From positions 1 through 43,807 of IMG/VR virus record IMGVR_UViG_3300025617_000043: 43,807 nucleotides of DNA; one strand, given 5' to 3'. A program made the translations under genes and the position numbers. Positions 1,594-14,272 of the stretch are shown here, piece after piece. Within the stretch, counting starts at the first letter, position 1. The number at the start of each line of letters is the position of its first letter. This DNA comes from a virus. The notes beneath the pieces are model-generated. The model did not search any database, was not told the DNA's origin, and saw only the letters and a list, made by a program, of their open reading frames with translations.

Positions 1594-3126
1594 CCAGTAA
1601 CTCTCCGAATAAAACGAATGCTCTGTTATTAGTTCTTCTAGCTGGACGATGTCACCTGGCTGTGGTCCGGACGTATCGTGAGAGATTGTGGACAGGATGG
1701 CGGCGTCCAAGGAGTCTGGAGAGGAGATGCCCGACTTGCGCATCTGGTCCTTGCTGGTCATTGTGATAGAACCCCTGGCGCTGAAGTGATAAGTCTGGCT
1801 TATCATCTCTTCGCGCAGCTGGTTGTCGTCGTAGTCTAAGTCCAGGCTCCCGTTTGCAAGGAGTTCTCGGAAGGTGTCGTAGTGCCATGCCCTCGCGTTA
1901 GTCCAGCGCGCTGAATCAGGCGAACCGTGCGATCCATTAATAGCGCCAATATCATAAACGGCATCATTAAAATCGTCCAGGCGAGCCAGAGCATCAACAA
2001 CACCACCACCCACACCGTTAACGTCAATGTTGACAACGCCTGCCACCAGTCTTTGCGCATGACCGTGCACCCTTCTTGCTGTTTCAATTAGGTCCAGCTT
2101 AGACCACTTGTCTATCAATCGCACCCTCCCACCCCGATTGATATACAAGACGTTCTCATCTGAACCAAAGCGCGCAACGTCAAGTCCCAGCGTCGGGCGG
2201 ATGGCGTCGTCATCCTCGAACTCTGCGTCAAAGCCCTTGTCGATTACTGACTGCGGGAAGAAGGTGTTGTCTGCCTCGTCCGGGAACTCGCCCAACACCT
2301 TGGACTTGTACCTGGCGGAGTCTTCACCCCAGGCACGTTTCTTGTGCTCAACCCAGTCAACGCTGGTGAGGCCATTTAAAAAATTTTTTTGATCTTCCTC
2401 TTCCGGGTAAACATTTTCCTCGGTAAATGTAGGTAGATCGAAAGCGCTAATGGTGTGAAGGTTCCAGTCCTGTGAGAGTTGAGGATCAGTGAATATTCTA
2501 TGAAATTCAGTTCCCCTTCTATCAGGGTTGCCAATCGCCAGAATCCTGGAGCCTGAACCAGTCGCCACTGCCTCAGCAGCCGTAAACATGTCTGTAGGAA
2601 GACCACCTGCCTCGTCAAGAAAAACATAAGTATTCCGTTTACGAGTTCCCTGGAAGCTTGAGACGATGTCCTGATCGCTAGGTCTTTTACCGAAGACGAG
2701 GAACTCTGCACCGTTATCACCATCCAACTTCCACGCTAATGTTTCCGTAATCCTACCAGGCAGCATCATCCCGCGAGTATCAGCTAAGCCCTTGTTTACT
2801 TTAAGGTAAGCAAAGATAACCTTCTCGATCTGGCTCAGCGTCGGTGCGGAGACAATGCACAGCGTGTCGCTCGGTACACCCGTCGCCACAATCCACGTAA
2901 TCAGGTCGGCCACCACGGCAGACTTACCGCAACCGTTCGCACTCTTCACTGCGGTGCGAGACGATTGCATAAAGGAGGAAACAATCTCCCCCTGCTTCGA
3001 GTACCACCGCTTTCCCAGTACGTCGCTTAGCCACGCCTCTGGGTCCGTTTGGTACAACCGCAGCTTGCTCTTAGAGCGCATCTCGTCGATGGCCCCGTCG
3101 AGCACGCTATTCAAATATGTTGGCAT
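1591..3126 (-). CDS. terL: Terminase large subunit (ATPase/nuclease)
   Basis: 511 residues, the motor that packages DNA and cuts it at the portal. The N-terminal ATPase has a Walker A-like SANGCGKS (about residue 63) and a Walker B FLDEA (about 170). The C-terminal RNase H-like nuclease has its acidic residues in LGLDVARFGSD, NIDVNGVG and SPDSLDAA. Both halves look intact. It overlaps the end of the small terminase gene by 20 bp, so translation is probably coupled. Portal follows directly. Confidence 0.96.
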   Translation of the reverse strand: MPTYLNSVLDGAIDEMRSKSKLRLYQTDPEAWLSDVLGKRWYSKQGEIVSSFMQSSRTAVKSANGCGKSAVVADLITWIVATGVPSDTLCIVSAPTLSQIEKVIFAYLKVNKGLADTRGMMLPGRITETLAWKLDGDNGAEFLVFGKRPSDQDIVSSFQGTRKRNTYVFLDEAGGLPTDMFTAAEAVATGSGSRILAIGNPDRRGTEFHRIFTDPQLSQDWNLHTISAFDLPTFTEENVYPEEEDQKNFLNGLTSVDWVEHKKRAWGEDSARYKSKVLGEFPDEADNTFFPQSVIDKGFDAEFEDDDAIRPTLGLDVARFGSDENVLYINRGGRVRLIDKWSKLDLIETARRVHGHAQRLVAGVVNIDVNGVGGGVVDALARLDDFNDAVYDIGAINGSHGSPDSARWTNARAWHYDTFRELLANGSLDLDYDDNQLREEMISQTYHFSARGSITMTSKDQMRKSGISSPDSLDAAILSTISHDTSGPQPGDIVQLEELITEHSFYSESYW

Positions 3127-3613
3127 CCAAAATACTTCCCGCCCTCTTGAGGCCCTGCTCTACTAAGTCGTCAATGTCTTCGTCGTCCGGCACCCCTTCG
3201 AATGCACGGAAGCCCGCAATGATATAAGCGAGCGCTGCGTCAAAGGCCTGGGCGAATATCTTAGCGTGTGCTGCCGTAATCTTTTCAATGTCATCATCGA
3301 CAAGTTTGCGTCTGGCGTCCAAGCGGTCTGAGACCAGGCGGAGCGACTTGAGGACAACGTTTGCTACGGAGGCAAAGTCTTTCATGTCTACGGAGTCCAG
3401 CATCCCGAAAGCTTTATCCTTCAGGGTGGCGGCCTCAATGAGAAGGAGCCTCTCCTCTTGGCGGTCTGTCAACCAGTCCTTGCTGTCCAGGAGGTAGGCG
3501 ATTCTCTCGGAGACGTAACCCGGTTCGAGTCCCGTGAGCTCCGCAATCTCGACAGGAGATTTTCTGGCGAGGCTCAATAGCTTCTCGTCCAGGTTCGTGC
3601 GCTCCAACTCCAT
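3107..3613 (-). CDS. terS: Terminase small subunit
   Basis: 168 residues, first gene of the late strand and directly upstream of terL. Small terminases recognise the packaging site and present DNA to the large subunit. The N-terminal part (residues 15-50, SPVEIAELTGLEPGYVSERI) reads as a helix-turn-helix. A long helical region for oligomerisation follows, then an acidic tail. There is no Shine-Dalgarno; TACAAT lies 7 nt before the ATG, so the transcript is probably leaderless. The assignment rests on position and HTH rather than a close family match. Confidence 0.8.
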   Translation of the reverse strand: MELERTNLDEKLLSLARKSPVEIAELTGLEPGYVSERIAYLLDSKDWLTDRQEERLLLIEAATLKDKAFGMLDSVDMKDFASVANVVLKSLRLVSDRLDARRKLVDDDIEKITAAHAKIFAQAFDAALAYIIAGFRAFEGVPDDEDIDDLVEQGLKRAGSILDANIFE

Positions 3614-3617
3614 GTAC

Positions 3618-3626
3618 TACATTGTA
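3618..3626. promoter_or_regulatory. Overlapping divergent -10 boxes, terminase versus early micro-gene
   Basis: The 17-bp gap between the divergent ATGs at 3613 (minus) and 3631 (plus) holds TACATT (3618-3623, plus) and TACAAT (3626-3621, minus). They overlap by three bases. Each lies 7 nt from its own ATG, so both transcripts could start at the start codon. Neither gene has a Shine-Dalgarno. Polymerase could use only one direction at a time. Confidence 0.5.
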
Positions 3627-3630
3627 TCTC

Positions 3631-3774
3631 ATGATAATTATTGAGACACAAGAGAACGATGTCATCCGTGAGTACGACCTTCCGAATGAGCAGCGCGATA
3701 GTTGGATCGAATTCTTCGACTGGCTGGTGGCGCAAGGGGAGATTCTGATGTGGGCCGAAATGCCGAAAATCTGA
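3631..3774 (+). CDS. Hypothetical protein, 47 aa, FDW motif
   Basis: Reads MIIIETQENDVIREYD and continues to a helical WIEFFDWLVAQGEI segment. The same FDW(L/M)xxQGxI pattern occurs in the 37-residue product at 7617-7730, so the two look like paralogous micro-proteins, which supports both as real. It has no Shine-Dalgarno; a TACATT box 7 nt upstream suggests leaderless expression. Function unknown. First gene of the rightward block. Confidence 0.5.
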   Translation: MIIIETQENDVIREYDLPNEQRDSWIEFFDWLVAQGEILMWAEMPKI

Positions 3775-3847
3775 AATTAAAAAAAATTAAACGTGCGGGT
3801 GTGCCGTACTAGAAAAATCGGATTTAGCAAATGTGAGAATTGTTTGG

Positions 3848-3884
3848 TAACGATTAGGTAACGAATCGGCGTGTCGCATTGACA
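3848..3884 (+). repeat. Composite repeat, module 1
   Basis: TAACGATTAGGTAACG (3848-3863), 15 bases, then TTGACA (3879-3884) preceded by GGCGTGTCGCA. It is the outlying copy of the repeat clustered at 4515-4858, in the 220-bp gap before the 28-residue gene. No TANNNT box lies 16-19 bp after the TTGACA, so it is probably a protein-binding site and not a promoter by itself. Confidence 0.7.
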
Positions 3885-3919
3885 GCCAGAAGAGCGTTAC
3901 AGATTGGTGCCGGCTGCGC

Positions 3920-3948
3920 TTGTGGTGTTGCCCTATTTAGACTAGGCT
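3920..3948 (+). promoter_or_regulatory. Putative early promoter TTGTGG-N17-TAGGCT
   Basis: A -35-like TTGTGG (3920-3925) and TAGGCT (3943-3948) are 17 bp apart, with the first gene of a small operon starting at 3994. Two other sites (4621-4649 and 5595-5623) share the TTGNNN-N17-TARGCT form, which is the main support. The alternative -10 TAGACT (3938) lacks a -35 at normal spacing. Confidence 0.45.
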
Positions 3949-3993
3949 TTTGGCATAGCCACTAAAGGGGTGGCACCAACAGATAGGGAAACA

Positions 3994-4080
3994 ATGAACG
4001 ACGAAATGATGATTCGCTGGATTGAGTCCACGCCGGTAGACGCTTGGATTGACGCAATGCTAGAGGGAGTAAGCGAATGA
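3994..4080 (+). CDS. Hypothetical micro-protein, 28 aa
   Basis: MNDEMMIRWIESTP and on, acidic with two Trp. An AGGGAAAC ribosome site precedes the ATG, and the stop overlaps the next start (ATGA). The tight overlap is the main evidence that it is translated. Function unknown. Confidence 0.5.
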   Translation: MNDEMMIRWIESTPVDAWIDAMLEGVSE

Positions 4081-4214
4081 GAGTGATTACCACGAACACG
4101 GCCGGCGAAAGTATCACCTACGCCTACGACCCGGAGCACTACGAGAGTGTGATGGTGTTTTACCAAGAGCTCAAAGAGCGGGGCGACTTGGTGAGCTACA
4201 GGGTGGCAGACTGA
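4077..4214 (+). CDS. Hypothetical protein, 45 aa
   Basis: Begins MRVITTNTAGESITYAYDPE. The start overlaps the preceding stop as ATGA and the stop overlaps the following ATG as TGATG, so it sits inside a coupled four-gene string (3994-4443). Predicted a short beta-hairpin plus a helix. Function unknown. Confidence 0.6.
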   Translation: MRVITTNTAGESITYAYDPEHYESVMVFYQELKERGDLVSYRVAD

Positions 4215-4339
4215 TGGCGGACAATTGCCTAATCTGTGGCGTGTGGGGTACCCTTCGGGGTACCCCTTGCCCAGACTGCGAGAACGCTAAGGGTGGCTGG
4301 GAAGATATAAGGCTAGACGACTACGGGAGGAAATTGTGA
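4214..4339 (+). CDS. CxxC zinc-ribbon micro-protein, 41 aa
   Basis: Two knuckles, CLIC (residues 5-8) and CPDC (19-22), are separated by a short turn, the layout of a minimal zinc ribbon. Start and stop both overlap neighbouring genes by a few bases. The mRNA for the turn between the knuckles is itself a perfect hairpin with a cUUCGg tetraloop (4245-4266). Function unknown. Confidence 0.6.
   Translation: MADNCLICGVWGTLRGTPCPDCENAKGGWEDIRLDDYGRKL
4245..4266 (+). other. Intragenic 9-bp hairpin with UUCG tetraloop
   Basis: GGGGTACCC pairs perfectly with GGGTACCCC around a TTCG loop (4254-4257), giving the very stable cUUCGg tetraloop. It lies inside the 41-residue zinc-ribbon gene. There is no U-tract after it, so it is not a standard terminator. 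It may protect mRNA, pause ribosomes or be a processing site. Confidence 0.75.
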
Positions 4340-4443
4340 ACAGGACGCGGCCAACACTTTGGGACTTGATACCAGATTGGGCTTATTGGATAATCTGCGG
4401 GGCGATCCTGATCCTGGCGCTAATAGCGCAGATCGGACAATAA
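4336..4443 (+). CDS. Single-pass membrane micro-protein, 35 aa
   Basis: The GTG start overlaps the preceding stop (GTGA) and has an upstream GGGAGGAAATT ribosome site. A short N-terminus (MNRTRPTLWDLIPD) is followed by a hydrophobic span of about 18 residues (WAYWIICGAILILALIAQ). Probably an inner-membrane peptide made early in infection. Such peptides often have anti-host or superinfection roles, but nothing here shows that. Confidence 0.6.
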   Translation: MNRTRPTLWDLIPDWAYWIICGAILILALIAQIGQ

Positions 4444-4581
4444 CCCCGGCAGCCTAGCCCCTCGATCTAAAAGCCGTCTACAGGACGGAGAACCAGACGA
4501 CCCCAAAAACAAGATAACGATTTGGTAACGACACGGCGTGGCGACTTGACACGATTACGGCAAGCGCCAGAGGGGGGATAG

Positions 4582-4597
4582 TCGAACATCTGTTCGA
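4582..4597. promoter_or_regulatory. LexA/SOS box TCGAAC-N4-GTTCGA
   Basis: A perfect palindrome with the TCGAAC(N4)GTTCGA form known for LexA operators of mycobacteria and other actinobacteria. It lies 4 bp upstream of composite module 3 and 24 bp upstream of the TTGACA of the promoter at 4621, so bound host LexA would sit beside that promoter. It suggests that part of the early region responds to host DNA damage. Confidence 0.8.
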
Positions 4598-4620
4598 TTA
4601 TAACGATTCGGTAACAGCCC

Positions 4621-4649
4621 TTGACATTGTGCCCGTTCTGTACTAAGCT
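4621..4649 (+). promoter_or_regulatory. Putative promoter TTGACA-N17-TAAGCT beside SOS box
   Basis: A consensus -35 (4621-4626) and TAAGCT (4644-4649) with ideal spacing. A TAACG box ends 4 bp upstream and the SOS box lies just beyond. It is the only composite repeat with a usable -10. The first gene downstream is at 5079, so the transcript would have a long leader or be a non-coding RNA. Confidence 0.55.
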
Positions 4650-4855
4650 GGGTTTGGTGCCCGAAAACAAGATAACGATCCGGTAACATTACGGCTGCTG
4701 CCCGGCGTGTCGCCTTGACAATAACGATCCGGTAACGCCCGGCGTGTCGGCTTGACATTCGGCAAGCGCCGCGAAAGCGAAATTATAACGATTTGATAAC
4801 AGCCCGCGTGTCAGCTTGACAATAGCAATTTGGCTGCGCTCGGCGTGTTGGGTTG

Positions 4856-4873
4856 ACACTCTCCGGAGAGTGT
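4856..4873. promoter_or_regulatory. Perfect 18-bp palindrome overlapping last TTGACA
   Basis: ACACTCTCCGGAGAGTGT is fully symmetric. Its first three bases are the ACA of the seventh TTGACA motif. Such a palindrome fits a dimeric repressor operator. A (CG)6 tract follows at 4878-4889. As RNA it could form a 7-bp hairpin, but it has no U-tract. Confidence 0.6.
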
Positions 4874-4919
4874 GTAACGCGCGCGCGCGTTCCTACTAAT
4901 TACGAATCCGCAGAAATAC

Positions 4920-4935
4920 CGTTACCATTCTGTTA
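4920..4935 (-). repeat. Inverted TAACG box
   Basis: On the minus strand this reads TAACAGAATGGTAACG, matching the box of the composite repeats except in the middle. It is the only inverted copy, has no TTGACA after it, and marks the right edge of the array just before the twin operator-promoters. Confidence 0.6.
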
Positions 4936-4953
4936 TCTCAGATCGGCTGGATT

Positions 4954-4983
4954 CAGCTAATTCATAGGTTAGCTGTGTATAAT
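4954..4983 (+). promoter_or_regulatory. Operator-promoter 1: CAGCTAA-N8-TTAGCTG with TATAAT
   Basis: A perfect 7-bp inverted repeat (4954-4960/4969-4975) fills the place of the -35 and spacer. A consensus TATAAT (4978-4983) follows. The -35 position reads AGCTAA, so the promoter probably depends on, or is blocked by, a factor that binds the inverted repeat. A conserved ATCAACA follows at the expected transcription start (4991). Confidence 0.7.
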
Positions 4984-5022
4984 GGGGGACATCAACAAGA
5001 GAAAAAATAGGGTGTTAGCACT

Positions 5023-5052
5023 CAGCTAAATCATAGGTTAGGGTGCTATACT
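5023..5052 (+). promoter_or_regulatory. Operator-promoter 2: CAGCTAA-N8-TTAG with TATACT
   Basis: A second copy 69 bp downstream of the first, with identical geometry: CAGCTAA to -10 is 24 bp in both, and ATCAACA follows at 5059. Its right half-site is degenerate (TTAGGGT). It directly precedes the 50-residue gene at 5079. A further TTAGC half-site lies at 5015. Confidence 0.7.
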
Positions 5053-5078
5053 GAAGCCATCAACACAAGGGGGTAATT

Positions 5079-5231
5079 GTGAACAGGGTACACGATTCAA
5101 TAGCTAAGCCAACCACCAAAACTCGCAACGGGTGGAACAGTAAGCGCCCAAAAACCACACGCGGCCAAAAGCTAAAGGGTAGCTACTATGCTGCCGCCAC
5201 GCCCGTACAAGTGAGCTGGATCGAACGATAG
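5079..5231 (+). CDS. Basic hypothetical protein, 50 aa
   Basis: The GTG start follows AAGGGGG at good spacing. The protein is Lys/Arg/Thr-rich with almost no acidic residues in its first 45 positions, so it may bind nucleic acid. It is the first gene after the twin operator-promoters and so probably among the earliest expressed. No family recognised. Confidence 0.6.
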   Translation: MNRVHDSIAKPTTKTRNGWNSKRPKTTRGQKLKGSYYAAATPVQVSWIER

Positions 5232-5240
5232 GGGAGAACT

Positions 5241-5456
5241 ATGGCACGACTACGCCGCACGGTGGTCGCCACGCGAAAGCTGGCGATACGCTACAACGAT
5301 AATAATACACGGGCGAAGTGTAGGCAATTTATGGAAGAGATGCTCACGCCTGAGATGGTCGAACGCGGGTTCAGAGTATCCGCGAGCCGAAAAGTGTACG
5401 ACGAAACAGACTGCGAAATTTATTACTACGCCTACGACATTACGGCTCTTATATAG
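5241..5456 (+). CDS. Hypothetical protein, 71 aa
   Basis: MARLRRTVVATRKLAIRYND at the start, with GGGGAG 6 bp upstream of the ATG. A basic N-terminus, a central helix (RAKCRQFMEEML) and a tyrosine-rich C-terminus. It lies 9 bp after the 50-residue gene and so in the same early operon. No family recognised. Confidence 0.65.
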   Translation: MARLRRTVVATRKLAIRYNDNNTRAKCRQFMEEMLTPEMVERGFRVSASRKVYDETDCEIYYYAYDITALI

Positions 5457-7617: not shown

Positions 7618-7730
7618 TGACAGATAACGACGGCTGGGGCGAAGTGTTCGACTGGATGCTAGAGCAAGGACACATCGTGACACTAGAAGACGGCTCAATG
7701 ATGATGGTGAAACAAGAAGGGGAAATGTAA
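7617..7730 (+). CDS. Hypothetical micro-protein, 37 aa, FDW motif
   Basis: MTDNDGWGEVFDWMLEQGHI carries the FDWxxxQGxI motif also seen in the 47-residue product at 3631. Overlaps the genes on both sides (TAATG). Function unknown. Confidence 0.6.
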   Translation: MTDNDGWGEVFDWMLEQGHIVTLEDGSMMMVKQEGEM

Positions 7731-8104
7731 TGGGAACGACGGGATATTGGGTTAGCTACTACGAGACGAACACAACCGAGAAGGTGAGGGAGTGGCTGCG
7801 CAAGCAATACACCTGGGACGAGTGGCAAGTGCTCGATCTGGCACCAGGCACGAAGCGCCGGAGTAACTGGTGGATGGCTATGAAGCAAGCGGAAACCGGT
7901 AGGGTCAGGGCGTTACAGGTCATCACCAGCAACCGAGCCAAGAGTGAAAGTACCTTTTATACCAAGGAAGTGGGGGAGGATATGGGACCATACTCCACGG
8001 ACATTCCCAAGCGATTGTTCCGGATGCTCACTCCACTTGATGAAGACGAAACCTACGCTCGGGAGTGGCGCGAGAAGGTAAGCAGCGGAGTAGTGAGGGG
8101 GTAG
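7730..8104 (+). CDS. Hypothetical protein, 124 aa (MGTTGYW type)
   Basis: Starts at the ATG overlapping the previous TAA, with AAGGGGAA upstream. MGTTGYWVSYYE and a following KVREWLRKQY helix resemble a set of phage proteins that begin MGxTGxx and have a conserved Trp-rich beta core (WWMAMKQ). Function not established. Confidence 0.75.
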   Translation: MGTTGYWVSYYETNTTEKVREWLRKQYTWDEWQVLDLAPGTKRRSNWWMAMKQAETGRVRALQVITSNRAKSESTFYTKEVGEDMGPYSTDIPKRLFRMLTPLDEDETYAREWREKVSSGVVRG

Positions 8105-8482: not shown

Positions 8483-9113
8483 CTGGGTAAGCAACTCGGT
8501 CAGAGTGACCGGCAACAAGGAAGACCTGAAACGCTTTGCGGAGCAGGCTGGCGCAGACTACAGGCGCAAGTTCCACGAACTAACACCGGATGGTTTAGCG
8601 TGGGTTGATGGTGAAGTATCCGATCAGCACCTATCATTCTGGAACTTCGTGCGACCTGACGACTCAATCCTCGATGAGTATTGGGGTTCCGAGAGCCAGG
8701 ACTTGTCGCTGGAGCAGCGGTTACAGTACAAGACGAACCACTGGTACGACTGGAATGTCCGCAACTGGGGGTGTAAGTGGGACGCGAGCCATGTGTACTT
8801 CGAGGACTGGGATGGCGAGTTAGCCTACGACTTCGATACGCCATGGGGGTTCCCCGAGGGTGCTGTCCGCGCCATGGTTGCCCAGTACCCGACACTGAAC
8901 TTCACGATCAGGTTCCTGGAGGAGCAGGGTTGGGGTGGCGAGGCTGTCGGCTTTGATGGTGACTTTGCCATCCTCAAGGAGTGGGACATTCCCTGTACGC
9001 ACGAGGAGCGCATGGAGCATATTGGCTACTGCTGGTGCGAGGAGATGCGCGACGACGAGGTGGAGTACATGTACGACGACTGCCCAAAGAAGAAGGAGCT
9101 AGCGAATGCCTAA
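8475..9113 (+). CDS. DUF1281/Api92-like protein, ferredoxin-like fold
   Basis: 212 residues starting MPNWVSNSVRVTGNKEDL, the classic N-terminus of the DUF1281/YubB (Api92-like) family, with the family's WYDWNVRNWGCKWDA segment mid-protein. The family occurs on phages, plasmids and integrative elements; its biochemical role is not established. The C-terminus adds CWCEE and other Cys residues. ATG at 8475 chosen for the MPNW signature and GAGGAGGAAG upstream. Confidence 0.85.
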   Translation: MPNWVSNSVRVTGNKEDLKRFAEQAGADYRRKFHELTPDGLAWVDGEVSDQHLSFWNFVRPDDSILDEYWGSESQDLSLEQRLQYKTNHWYDWNVRNWGCKWDASHVYFEDWDGELAYDFDTPWGFPEGAVRAMVAQYPTLNFTIRFLEEQGWGGEAVGFDGDFAILKEWDIPCTHEERMEHIGYCWCEEMRDDEVEYMYDDCPKKKELANA

Positions 9114-9384: not shown

Positions 9385-9888
9385 ATGACCAACTGGGGGA
9401 ACGAAGCAACAGTAGCCAAGACAGAAGTATGGCTCACGCCACCAAGCATTATCAGAGCGCTTGGGGATTTCGATCTTGACCCGTGCTCCGAGGAGGAGAT
9501 GCCGTGGCAAGTGGCAAGCAAGAAGTACACGGAGAAGGACGACGGTCTTGTTCAGGAATGGGAGGGTCGGGTCTTCATGAACCCACCGTACGGACCGAAG
9601 CTTGACCCCTTCTTGCACAAGCTGGCTGAGCACGGAAACGGAATCGCTCTCGTGTTCGCTAGGACGGAGACGCGGGCGTTCTTTAGAAATGTGTGGCCGC
9701 GCGCTAATGCGATCATGTTCTTGCGCGGTCGGGTTAGGTTCTATCGACCAGACGGAACGCAGGGACAGTCTTCTGGTTCGCCTAGCTGCCTCGTCGCCTA
9801 CGGCGAGAACAATGTCAAGGCGTTGTATGACTCTGGTCTCGATGGAGTCATCATTACATTGGATGGAATGGAGGAGATGCCCAAGTGA
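9385..9888 (+). CDS. DNA N6-adenine methyltransferase (phage Dam type)
   Basis: 167 residues matching the phage Dam family (PF05869 type): KTEVWLTPPSIIRALGDFDLDP at the start and the catalytic NPPY at 66-69, followed by PFLHKLAEHG. It transfers a methyl group from SAM to N6 of adenine, probably to mask phage DNA from host restriction. No target-recognition extension is visible, so the site cannot be read. It overlaps the cytosine methyltransferase by 4 bp, so both bases are probably modified together. Confidence 0.9.
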   Translation: MTNWGNEATVAKTEVWLTPPSIIRALGDFDLDPCSEEEMPWQVASKKYTEKDDGLVQEWEGRVFMNPPYGPKLDPFLHKLAEHGNGIALVFARTETRAFFRNVWPRANAIMFLRGRVRFYRPDGTQGQSSGSPSCLVAYGENNVKALYDSGLDGVIITLDGMEEMPK

Positions 9889-10493
9889 AGATACTAAACC
9901 TCTACGCCGGCATCGGTGGCAACAGGAAGCTCTGGGGCGACGATCACCAGATAACCTCGGTTGAGTACGACCCCAAGATTGCAGCCGTGTATGCCGACCT
10001 ATGGCCGCAGGATGAGCTGGTCGTGGGAGATGCTCACGAGTACCTGAGACTGAACCACGAGCAGTTCGACTTCATCTGGTCATCACCACCGTGCCAAAGC
10101 CACAGCTCGTTTCGCTACAACATTCAGGTGAGGTTCCACGGGACCGAGCAGGTCTACCCGGACATGAGCTTGTATGAAGAGATTCTCTTTCTGAAGTACC
10201 ACAGCAACGCCACCTGGCTGGTGGAGAATGTCGTGCCGTATTACGGAGCGATGCTCGATCCCATCAAGCGCAATCGCCATCTGTACTGGACTAATTTTGA
10301 CCTGCCAGAGATTCCCAAGACGGGTGAGAACATCAAGACAATGAACAAGGTTAGCCAGCTCGAGGAGCTACACGGGTTTGACCTGTCGAAATATAGTTTG
10401 CCAAACAAGAGGCAAGTGCTTCGAAATGTAGTCGATCCGGAAGCGGGCCGGCTATTTTTGGAGGCAGCAATCAAGGAGAGGGAGCATGGATAA
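9885..10493 (+). CDS. DNA cytosine-C5 methyltransferase
   Basis: GTG start (GTGA overlap). SAM-binding motif LNLYAGIGG (residues 4-12), catalytic SSPPCQSHS with Cys70, ENV at 114-116, and a C-terminal RQVLRNVVDP segment like motif IX/X. At 202 residues it is short, with a reduced target-recognition region, as is usual for small phage cytosine methyltransferases. No partner endonuclease is nearby, so it probably serves protection. Confidence 0.9.
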   Translation: MKILNLYAGIGGNRKLWGDDHQITSVEYDPKIAAVYADLWPQDELVVGDAHEYLRLNHEQFDFIWSSPPCQSHSSFRYNIQVRFHGTEQVYPDMSLYEEILFLKYHSNATWLVENVVPYYGAMLDPIKRNRHLYWTNFDLPEIPKTGENIKTMNKVSQLEELHGFDLSKYSLPNKRQVLRNVVDPEAGRLFLEAAIKEREHG

Positions 10494-12314: not shown

Positions 12315-13614
12315 CGCTTCCACCATGGGGGCTGGTAAGACACTCAAGGCGGTTGAGGTAGCCAAGGCTCTTGGCTCCAAGACCATCCTGCTCATAGCCC
12401 CACTCAACACCAGGCTGGGGTGGCAGGTAACCTTCGAGCGACAGGGTGTAGACCTGCCATTCAGGTGGATCAACTCAAGGTCCGCTGGCCAGAAGGCCAA
12501 GGAGGATTGGTTTTGGCAGCAGCCCGGCATCTACTTCGTGGGTGTCGAGTTGTTCGTTCGACTAGGCTGGGAGGGCAAGACTCGATCGAAGATGTGGAGC
12601 CACAAGCCTGACCTCGTGCTGTTCGACGAGGTACACCGCAGTCAGAATCGCAAGAGCAAGACGCACAAGACGCTCAAGCAGGTGAAGGGCAAGTTCAAGC
12701 TTGCCATGTCGGGCACCCCCACGGGCAACAACTTTGATGGCGCTTGGGCTGTGACCAAGTGGCTGTGGCCAACGGTTATCGAGAACTCTTACTGGGCTTG
12801 GGTCGATAAGTGGTGCGCCACTGAGTACGACCACTTCGCACCGGGCGGGAAGAAGGTTGTCGGCGAGAAGACGCCCGGCGCATTCTTCAACTACTTGCCG
12901 TGCTACGTCCGCCTCGAGTCCGAGGTTGACGCCAAGCTCCAAGAGGAGCAGGTCTACATCGAGCTCACACGTGAGCAGCGCAAGGCCTACAACGATCTTG
13001 AAGAGAAGATGATTACCTGGTTAGAGGACAGGCCGCTGGTGGTCGAGTTCCCGATCAGCTTGCGCGCCAGGCTTCGGCAGGCGACACTCGGGTTGTTCTC
13101 CATCGACGACGAGGACAACGTGGTATTCGACAACGACTGCAAGTCGCAGAAAATCGACGTGATGTTCGACATACTCGAGGACGACTTCGAGAACGAGACG
13201 GCTCTCATCCTTACCGACTCCAGAAAGTTTGCCGACGTGGTTGTCAGCAGGCTCAACCGGGACGGCAAGACCGCAATGCCCTGGCATGGAAACATCTCGG
13301 ATGCTAAGCGACAAGAGACCAAGGAAGCATTTGTCAGTGGTTCGTGTCAGTATGTAGTAGCTGTAATATCCGCCATCGCAGAAGGCGTTGACGGGTTGCA
13401 GCACGCAACACGTAATGTGCTGTGGATGAATCGCAGTGACAACAGAATCCTCAACGAGCAGGTGGCCAAGCGTGTTCACCGCAGGGGACAAGAGAGAACG
13501 GTTCGATCGGTGGAGCTCATAGCAATTGACACCTATGACTCCGGCGTATTAAGCTCGCAGATACAGAAGGCAGTTGACATGAACCGAACACTCAAGGAGC
13601 AACGTGGCGATTAG
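12229..13614 (+). CDS. SNF2-like DEAD/DEAH helicase
   Basis: 461 residues with all expected superfamily 2 motifs: Walker A STMGAGKT (31-38), DEVH (133-136), SGTPTGN (161-167), ILTDS, an SxIAEGVDGLQHA segment and motif VI QVAKRVHRRGQ. These are the SNF2-type motifs found in phage helicases of similar size. It probably unwinds or remodels DNA or displaces proteins during replication or recombination. ATG 12229 chosen for AAGAGGAGGAGG upstream; the in-frame extension to 12109 lacks such a site. Confidence 0.9.
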   Translation: MTLEKLLPTPDQQSAIQRIVTEPTRAALNASTMGAGKTLKAVEVAKALGSKTILLIAPLNTRLGWQVTFERQGVDLPFRWINSRSAGQKAKEDWFWQQPGIYFVGVELFVRLGWEGKTRSKMWSHKPDLVLFDEVHRSQNRKSKTHKTLKQVKGKFKLAMSGTPTGNNFDGAWAVTKWLWPTVIENSYWAWVDKWCATEYDHFAPGGKKVVGEKTPGAFFNYLPCYVRLESEVDAKLQEEQVYIELTREQRKAYNDLEEKMITWLEDRPLVVEFPISLRARLRQATLGLFSIDDEDNVVFDNDCKSQKIDVMFDILEDDFENETALILTDSRKFADVVVSRLNRDGKTAMPWHGNISDAKRQETKEAFVSGSCQYVVAVISAIAEGVDGLQHATRNVLWMNRSDNRILNEQVAKRVHRRGQERTVRSVELIAIDTYDSGVLSSQIQKAVDMNRTLKEQRGD

Positions 13615-14272
13615 TATTGGTGACAACTGCAAGAGGGGTCACGAGATATCAGGTGACAACATTCAGTACTACACCAACCACGGTGTGCGACGAGTGCGGT
13701 GCGCAACGTGCAACCAGCCACCAAAGTCCAACCCGAAGAAGAAGCCGGGCGACATGTGCAAGAACGGTCACGTGATTATCGGTGACAACATGCGTGAGCA
13801 GAAGATGCCGGGCGGTGTGGCATACGTTTGCGTTACTTGCAAGCGGGAAAATGTGCGAAGAAATTATCGCAATAATTCCGGTCTCACCGAGGATGAACTC
13901 AACCGCAGAGATCGCAATCAGTCCAAGTCTGCGCTTCAATCAGCACGCAGGGCGGCCGAGCGAGCTGACGATCTTATCGAGAAGGGCAAGGAAGATGCTG
14001 CGCTCAACTACCTGAAGCTCACTAAACGAGCCGAGCGGATGAGTGATGCCCTACAGAAGGGCATGGCGAAAGACAGGGCCAGGTGTGCAGATAATCCTGG
14101 ACCCTATATTGACTACGAAGAAGGCAACGAGCCAACCAAAAACCAGGCGTACTTGATGTGTGTCGGTTGTCCGGTGTTGGTGCAGTGTGCTAGATTCGCC
14201 AGCGCATACAAACCAGCTGTCGGTGTATGGGGTGGGGAAGTTTATGAAGACGGCAAGTTACGATACAAATAG
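13604..14272 (+). CDS. WhiB-family regulator fused to two N-terminal zinc-ribbon repeats
   Basis: 222 residues in three parts. Two repeats of C-x3-H...C-x2-C type with the shared (R/N)GHxIxGDN core lie at residues 9-36 and 52-79. A charged helical linker covers about 95-155. A WhiB domain follows, with Cys161, 186, 189 and 195 (C-x24-C-x2-C-x5-C) and the GVWGG turn at 207-211. WhiB proteins are actinobacterial [4Fe-4S] regulators that act on sigma factor; phage copies can repress host genes or block superinfection. GTG start behind AAGGAGC, overlapping the helicase stop. Confidence 0.85.
   Translation: MAISIGDNCKRGHEISGDNIQYYTNHGVRRVRCATCNQPPKSNPKKKPGDMCKNGHVIIGDNMREQKMPGGVAYVCVTCKRENVRRNYRNNSGLTEDELNRRDRNQSKSALQSARRAAERADDLIEKGKEDAALNYLKLTKRAERMSDALQKGMAKDRARCADNPGPYIDYEEGNEPTKNQAYLMCVGCPVLVQCARFASAYKPAVGVWGGEVYEDGKLRYK

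Follow-up and report, generated by a model that had tools for sequence, protein, structure and literature searches.

The stretch considered here, IMG/VR virus record IMGVR_UViG_3300025617_000043 (43,807 bp, all of it referred to below as the window), comes from a phage whose hosts are probably actinobacteria. Between positions 3,848 and 4,935, in the divergent region beside the terminase genes, lies a tandem array that combines a 15-mer box (TAACGATNNGGTAAC), the hexamer TTGACA and a second element (GGCGTGTCG) at set distances. We consider it rather likely that this array is an activator-dependent promoter array, probably served by a host regulator of the MtrA/GlnR type and by a further factor at GGCGTGTCG. 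What we observe are the elements, their spacings, their conservation and the -35/-10 geometry in relatives, which are themselves IMG/VR contigs.

The boxes, the TTGACA hexamers and the second elements were all found at the positions given by an initial annotation made from the letters alone, and the inverted box that it described as closing the array is present at 4921-4935. The box matches exactly at 3848, 4515, 4601, 4673 and 4722 and with one mismatch at 4786; the five exact matches are the only ones in the 43.8-kb record, none lying outside the array, and the reversed-pattern control gives 0. At up to three mismatches there are 15 boxes in the window versus 7.6 in shuffles (shuffle maximum 13). 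TTGACA, present at 3879, 4546, 4621, 4715, 4752, 4816 and 4853 of the array, occurs 45 times across the whole window versus 21.5 times in shuffles. The second element, sought as GGCGTGTCGNCTTGACA with up to three mismatches, has six copies in the window, every one inside the array (shuffles: mean 0.44, maximum 4), and begins 4-5 or 16 bp after the end of a box; its GTGTC core is found in four of the six copies, with GTGGC in copy 2 and GTGTT in copy 7. The parts of the array are as follows.

3848-3862, plus strand: box 1 (direct repeat of MtrA/GlnR type), gap of 16 bp to the TTGACA at 3879
3868-3884, plus strand: module 1, GGCGTGTCG-CA-TTGACA, without a -10 at spacer 17
4515-4529, plus strand: box 2, gap of 16 bp
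4535-4551, plus strand: module 2, GGCGTGGCG-AC-TTGACA, without a -10
4601-4615, plus strand: box 3, predicted activator box of the complete promoter, gap of 5 bp
4621-4649, plus strand: promoter TTGACA-N17-TAAGCT, a layout repeated in distant relatives
4653-4662, plus strand: start-site element TTTGGTGCCC, beginning 26 nt after TTGACA
4673-4687, plus strand: box 4, gap of 27 bp, 72 bp downstream of box 3
4704-4720, plus strand: module 4, GGCGTGTCG-CC-TTGACA, without a -10
4722-4736, plus strand: box 5, gap of 15 bp
4741-4757, plus strand: module 5, GGCGTGTCG-GC-TTGACA, without a -10
4786-4800, plus strand: box 6, one mismatch, gap of 15 bp
4805-4821, plus strand: module 6, CGCGTGTCA-GC-TTGACA, without a -10
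4823-4837, plus strand: putative decayed box 7, TAGCAATTTGGCTGC, five mismatches, gap of 15 bp to the TTGACA at 4853
4842-4858, plus strand: module 7, GGCGTGTTG-GG-TTGACA, with only a weak -10-like TAACGC at spacer 16
4921-4935, minus strand: inverted box closing the array, three mismatches, half-sites TAAC-N7-TAAC

Measured from the end of the 15-mer box, the gaps to TTGACA in six modules are, in order, 16, 16, 5, 27, 15 and 15 bp; the initial annotation had used a 16-mer box and given 15, 15, 4, 26, 14 and 14 bp for the same placement. Its claim that the gaps change in whole helical turns stood up against random gaps, which fail to reproduce these steps: phasing is high (R(10.5)=0.95) and is reached by 0.05% of random six-gap sets drawn uniformly from 3-33 bp (p ~0.0005). 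As the modules have probably arisen from each other by duplication, the test was also reduced to the three distinct gap classes 5, 16 and 27, which gives p=0.011 (1.1%). Phasing in the window alone is suggestive and not decisive, and it is the relatives that decide.

A query with the DUF3987 protein led to 17 related loci, and in nine fetched loci with a TerS at least 50% identical the 1.2-2.6 kb upstream of terS were compared. The array is kept upstream of terS in four of the nine (L109, L113, L105 and L114), of which L113 and L105 look like one phage, so that three close phages have the array. The phasing is kept in them too, with gaps of 16, 16, 5, 26, 15 and 15 bp in L113/L105, of 15, 5, 15 and 15 bp in L109 and of 5, 16, 5 and 26 bp in L114. 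When these regions are aligned, the spacers are seen to have diverged and conserved islands remain at the boxes, at TTGACA, at GGCGTGTC and over most of TTTGGTGCCC; the inverted box that follows the array is also present in L113 (two mismatches) and, by eye only, in L109.

The same arrangement recurs in more distant viral contigs. A scan for box-N(3-33)-TTGACA returned 42 stretches, and the swapped order 10 stretches, five of which lie in known arrays. The 52 rows of the box-N(3-33)-TTGACA scan reduce to 40 distinct cases (same gap and 75% identity), of which 10 were excluded as presumed members of the clade of the window. Twelve of the 30 remaining cases have a gap of 5 bp, and six of the 18 others fall at 15-17 bp (p=0.006 versus an even spread); L017 (gap of 15 bp) was wrongly among the 10 excluded rows, and including it gives 7/19, for which p was not recomputed. 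A second viral scan required a gap of exactly 5 bp, was less strict at two positions of the box and asked for TTGAC and not TTGACA; it gave 49 stretches, and since its gap was preset, only the N(3-33) scan informs on the choice of gap. A relative of the TerL or TerS of the window is found in 24 of these 49 loci (some of which are copies of one phage); TerL identities are 40-53% for those not in the clade. With L159 as the single exception, the promoter of these loci is directed away from the terminase at a distance of no more than 7 kb, as in the window (23 of 24). Box-to-box spacing is 71-73 bp in 20 of 72 pairs, a count in which some phages appear more than once, under separate locus ids. 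In L016 (GC 44%; TerL 49%), a gap-5 promoter is followed 73 bp on by a gap-15 GGCGTGTCG module, box (three mismatches)-N15-TTGACT-N17-TATAAT, which stands ahead of an ATG and has GGCGTGTCGAT between the box and the -35. L017, which has no detectable protein relation to the window, carries box-N15-TTGACA with GGCGTGTTG in between.

These distant promoters also bear on the role of TTGACA. As stated in the initial annotation, there is one usable -10 in the array: TAnnnT at spacer 17 (TAAGCT) is found at 4621 alone, and the features of a sigma-70-type promoter (TTGACA, a 16-18 bp spacer and a TATAAT-like hexamer) are combined only there. Its corollary that TTGACA is mostly not a -35 did not survive the comparison, as the related box and GGCGTGTCG promoters carry TAnnnT most commonly at 17 bp, from which we infer that TTGACA is a true -35. 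Among 50 distinct box promoters, TAnnnT stands at spacer 17 in 21, the commonest spacer, with smaller numbers at 18 (6) and 22 (6). A generic promoter scan of 3600-5250 called two promoter-like sites versus 1.6 in shuffles and missed the one at 4621, because TAAGCT matches at only three of six positions. A start-site element, TTTGRTRCC, is present in 11 of 47 distinct box promoters, in 10 of these 11 exactly 26 nt after the hexamer, versus a chance background of ~0.003 per promoter. Copies overlapping the expected start are seen at 4653-4662 of the window and in L008, L014, L015, L016, L024, L114, L140, L154, L156 and L160.

The second element is found in many other phage contigs. In a viral scan, CGGCGTGTCGNCTTGACA gave at least 120 stretches with at least 164 copies, in contigs of up to 116 kb; the nine loci measured have 36-45% GC. 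Some of these contigs are probably from actinophages too, as a ribonucleotide reductase from one of them is ~61% identical to Streptomyces phage proteins. Clustering of the GGCGTGTCG contexts at 60% flank identity gave 177 clusters, 91 of them with a -35-like hexamer at +11. Picking the contigs for CGGCGTGTCGNCTTGACA inflates both the number of GGCGTGTCG copies (574) and the surplus of TTGACA at +11; a -10 at 17 bp and the spacing of CRP-like boxes lie outside the search pattern. TAnnnT is found at spacer 17 in 17 of the 91 contexts and in 0-4 at every other spacer from 8 to 30. In 33 cases a CRP-like box (TGTGA-N6-TCACA) ends 8-12 bp ahead of GGCGTGTCG, and in 12 cases 19-25 bp ahead of it; two cases fall between these ranges, and the reversed-sequence control yields one. 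Since the Rayleigh test puts the peak period of these spacings near 12 and not at 10.5, we rely on the two modes and not on a fitted period; the CRP-like box makes roughly the same one-turn choice as the box of the window. The first 30 kb of Streptomyces phage EGole hold one GGCGTGTCG, without a TTGACA at the expected place. Taken together, GGCGTGTCG reads as a -35-adjacent site that is widespread in phage contigs and precedes real promoters. In L179-L298, CRP-like boxes and TTATCCACA-like 9-mers are seen near GGCGTGTCG in apparent intergenic regions.

Which proteins would occupy the two elements can be narrowed by comparison with known sites, here taken from parts of the papers cited. The Corynebacterium glutamicum MtrA consensus is RTAACAATttnRTAACAAT, with activation from upstream of the -35 (PMC3353115); the protein of Streptomyces coelicolor recognises direct repeats separated by five bp (PMC5650626), that of Mycobacterium tuberculosis 7-bp repeats with a 4-bp spacer (PMC11215152), and Streptomyces venezuelae sites at -34 and -55 are read as activating (PMC13189361). 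The phage box, RTAACGAT-NN-GGTAAC, resembles MtrA sites of Corynebacterium, Streptomyces and Mycobacterium in being a direct RTAAC(A/G)AT repeat with an 11-bp period upstream of the -35. Set against two RTAACAAT repeats with a 3-bp linker, it fits the first repeat with one base off, as well as the period, and in the second repeat matches the TAAC core only, often reading TAACGG or TAACAG in place of TAACAAT; variants from the gap-5 viral scan include TAACAATTTGATAAC. A gap of 5 bp to TTGAC corresponds to the activating position of MtrA. In contrast to MtrA sites, the phage boxes lie in phage DNA, form a tandem array and keep set distances from TTGACA (5, 15/16 and 26/27 bp). MtrA scored above the family cut-off in all five actinobacterial genomes searched.

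The mechanism would be unchanged if the regulator were GlnR, which controls nitrogen metabolism, or another OmpR-family protein and not MtrA, a version that we judge unlikely. GlnR boxes, GTnAC-n6-GTnAC in S. venezuelae and t/gTAAC-n6-Gc/aAAC in Mycobacterium smegmatis, share the 11-bp period, and a title in the reference list of the same paper speaks of GlnR boxes bound by MtrA (PMC10704036, in part). Because the MtrA sites of C. glutamicum, S. coelicolor and M. tuberculosis have a period of ~11 bp, as GlnR boxes do, sequence cannot separate the two. Compared with the motif GTnAC-n6-G(a/T)nAC, the phage box fits the S. venezuelae form and, less well, the S. coelicolor form. MtrA is favoured by the first repeat, TAAC(G/A)AT as in the C. 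glutamicum consensus, and by the second half, which in the phage boxes is GTAAC or ATAAC, unlike several GlnR b-sites that are GAAAC-like. The a-b-a-b quadruple of GlnR was seen in none of the phage boxes except for the stacked half-sites of L009, where half-sites with an 11-bp period are stacked upstream of TTGACA (8647-8733, minus strand of the locus, 60% GC).

For the second element, a WhiA acting with the phage WhiB-like protein is a candidate reader, although five bases cannot decide the matter. A WhiA-WhiB-sigma structure is known. As at WhiA/WhiB promoters, GTGTC stands directly upstream of the -35 in the array, and the phage encodes a WhiB-domain protein. The WhiA motif, GACAC in either orientation, is 5 bp long and common, the longer GGCGTGTCG is absent from the passages on WhiA in the two papers concerned, and WhiA works with WhiB (PMC3781837 and PMC4850268, in part). 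A WhiB motif was detected in only two of 120 GGCGTGTCG-linked loci; as these span ~10 kb each and not whole genomes, the count does not tell whether WhiB predicts the second element.

The gene layout suggests what the array would control. The terS gene (3107-3613, minus strand), terL and the structural genes are oriented leftward, and a block of rightward replication-type genes, encoding a helicase, the WhiB-domain protein (13604-14272, from a Pfam scan), Erf, an exonuclease, SSB and a DUF3987 primase, begins at ~5.1 kb; the divergent region between terS and this block consists of the array and four tiny open reading frames. The array would drive the rightward, presumably early, gene block. 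In the proposed model, a response regulator of the OmpR family, whose members often use stacked half-sites, would sit on each box as a dimer; it is most likely the host's own MtrA. At a gap of 5 bp, the box would lie directly upstream of a sigma-A -35, giving a class-II-type promoter in which the dimer touches sigma region 4 at TTGACA and activates the promoter at 4621. At gaps of 15/16 and 26/27 bp, the box would be one or two turns farther away on the same face, with the -35-adjacent space taken up by GGCGTGTCG-N2 and bound by another factor, through which the more distant dimers may cooperate. Modules without a -10 might increase concentration locally, retain polymerase or serve as decoys or auxiliary sites. 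The identity of the binding proteins, the activation, the early timing of the block and the role of the modules without a -10 are what we infer. The initial annotation had listed several possible roles. Of these, we retain a platform on which proteins bind two elements along the same DNA face, with an activator as the most likely occupant; an origin receives no support.

Several observations weigh against an activator array read by a host regulator. Six of the seven TTGACA modules in the window lack TAnnnT at spacer 17, and the box promoters have a second TAnnnT peak at spacer 12 (13/50), which is probably the TATGCT part (first half) of TATGCTAAGCT. The array is absent from five of the nine close loci (L104, L108, L110, L106 and L107), in whose records no exact or one-mismatch box was found; they include L104, the closest by TerS (93%), where the place is taken by GCGTGACAAC-TTGACA-N17-TATTGC, a promoter whose second element is weakened. 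Kept or lost as a whole, the array reads as a conserved yet replaceable module. In bacteria, the signal is faint: the bare box is mildly enriched in 296 actinobacterial genomes (8 versus 0 in the control, with two contributed by the centre genome, itself chosen for holding a match) and in 121 genomes around another match-chosen genome (16 versus 7), no known MtrA target was recognised beside the eight actinobacterial sites, and GGCGTGTCG-N2-TTGACA occurs in none of 121 genomes of one actinobacterial order. Around a Bacteroidales genome, the counts are 12 versus 10 in 149 genomes. Three of the eight actinobacterial sites, the exact boxes at position 1501 of L175, L176 and L177 (three small genomes), stand between a divergent sugar-binding-protein gene and an argS-like gene and may be genuine targets, in the host, of the regulator that reads the phage boxes. 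Finally, exact box-N5-TTGACA has only four matches in the whole bacterial genome collection, one of them in an actinobacterium, versus 12 distinct viral cases outside the clade. The promoter at 4621-4649 therefore belongs to a class that is nearly confined to viral contigs.

This near-absence from bacteria also speaks for boxes that are operators of a phage DNA-binding protein of a new family, a repressor or middle activator, with the likeness to MtrA and GlnR sites being coincidence or mimicry. Such a protein could hide among the 40 of the 70 Pfam-scanned window proteins that had no listed family at the limits used, and the five array-less relatives lack some uncharacterised genes of the array-bearing G007 and G002, for example those at 5079-5231 and 7730-8104. 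On the other hand, only terminase and portal are common to most of the distant box-bearing loci compared, and the Pfam scan of the 70 window proteins, in which WhiB was the sole transcription factor recognised, revealed neither a repressor nor an integrase nor a response regulator. We therefore hold a phage-encoded regulator to be improbable, although a small gene for one could be missed as many of the compared contigs are fragments. Neither gene presence in box-bearing versus box-less relatives nor protein families yielded a candidate box reader encoded by the phage.

A replication origin, one of the options of the initial annotation, would require the repeats to be iterons that a phage initiator recognises; we judge it very improbable. 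The direct repeats, the intergenic position and a nearby GC-skew minimum would suit an origin, as would the TTATCCACA-like sequences sometimes near GGCGTGTCG in other phages. The skew minimum, near 3 kb, does not discriminate, since it coincides with the switch of transcription direction; from phage to phage, the boxes go together with the -35/-10 geometry, and the window holds no known initiator beside the array and no DnaA-box cluster, with a single 9-mer (TTATACACA at 4982). No par genes were found among the 70 proteins in the Pfam scan, which is no direct test of partition, and neither an origin nor a partition site gains anything from the evidence. Most improbable of all is a temperate-phage operator array like the stoperators of mycobacteriophage L5, which reportedly have a TTGACA-like core in 13-bp asymmetric sites dispersed over the genome with a cognate repressor, whereas here sequences close to the second element occur only in the array, all in a single orientation, and the 70 proteins include no recognised repressor or integrase.

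Further features lie in and around the array. ACACTCTCCGGAGAGTGT, a perfect 18-bp palindrome at 4856-4873, overlaps the end of the last TTGACA. A near-identical pair of 20-bp repeats (TCAGCTAA-TTCATAGGTTAG) is located at 4953-4983 and 5022-5052, directly upstream of TATAAT/TATACT -10s, and the first forms the dyad AGCTAA-N8-TTAGCT; L113 has a similar pair, and L109 has two TTGACA-N17-TATAGT promoters in its place. The 4953-5052 repeats probably mark another pair of promoters, under a separate operator. Genes for a Dam-like and a cytosine DNA methyltransferase (9385-10493) are both present in the array-bearing G007 and G002 and missing from each of the five compared relatives that lack the array, some of them represented by incomplete records.

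Speculatively, and in our view doubtfully, actinophages may more than once have assembled promoters on host regulators of stress or nutrient supply (of the MtrA/GlnR type in the window, of the CRP type in other phages), docked at whole turns upstream of a common GGCGTGTCG site beside the -35 that a phage-directed WhiB/WhiA-like complex would read. In that case the phage would sense the envelope or nutrient state of its host at infection, and the inputs of several regulators could be summed on the array. A grammar common to distant phages, made up of activator box, whole-turn spacing, GGCGTGTCG, -35, 17 bp and -10, would expose control regions in metagenome contigs and would open to testing the question of whether these phages time transcription by host MtrAB or GlnR signalling. 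If the GGCGTGTCG factor were the phage WhiB with WhiA, actinophage whiB genes, which are regarded as a mark of these phages (PMC10202952, in part), would gain a concrete role.

Annotated phages show no DNA similarity to the window in near and distant search modes, and the nearest isolates by TerL are the Clavibacter phages CN1A (47%) and CMP1 (44%). As in the window, the TerL and primase homologues of both phages lie on different strands and point outward from the genome-end region. Unlike the window, CN1A has no box at up to two mismatches (36.8 of 56.8 kb covered) and CMP1 one two-mismatch box and no array (28.7 of 58.7 kb covered), with at most one GGCGTGTCG in the parts covered. In open-licence PMC papers, the literature covered here, we found no description of the combination, the tandem phage form, the GGCGTGTCG site or the start-site element, in agreement with the initial annotation, which knew of no described phage element of this form. 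In class I and class II activation by CRP or PhoB, the activator box is -35-proximal or farther upstream on one face. The array shares with these promoters a box that is -35-proximal or one or two turns upstream on one face, and differs from them in that most of its modules lack a -10 and an extra GGCGTGTCG site stands beside the -35; its parts are of known kinds, namely activator boxes at phased positions before sigma-70 promoters.

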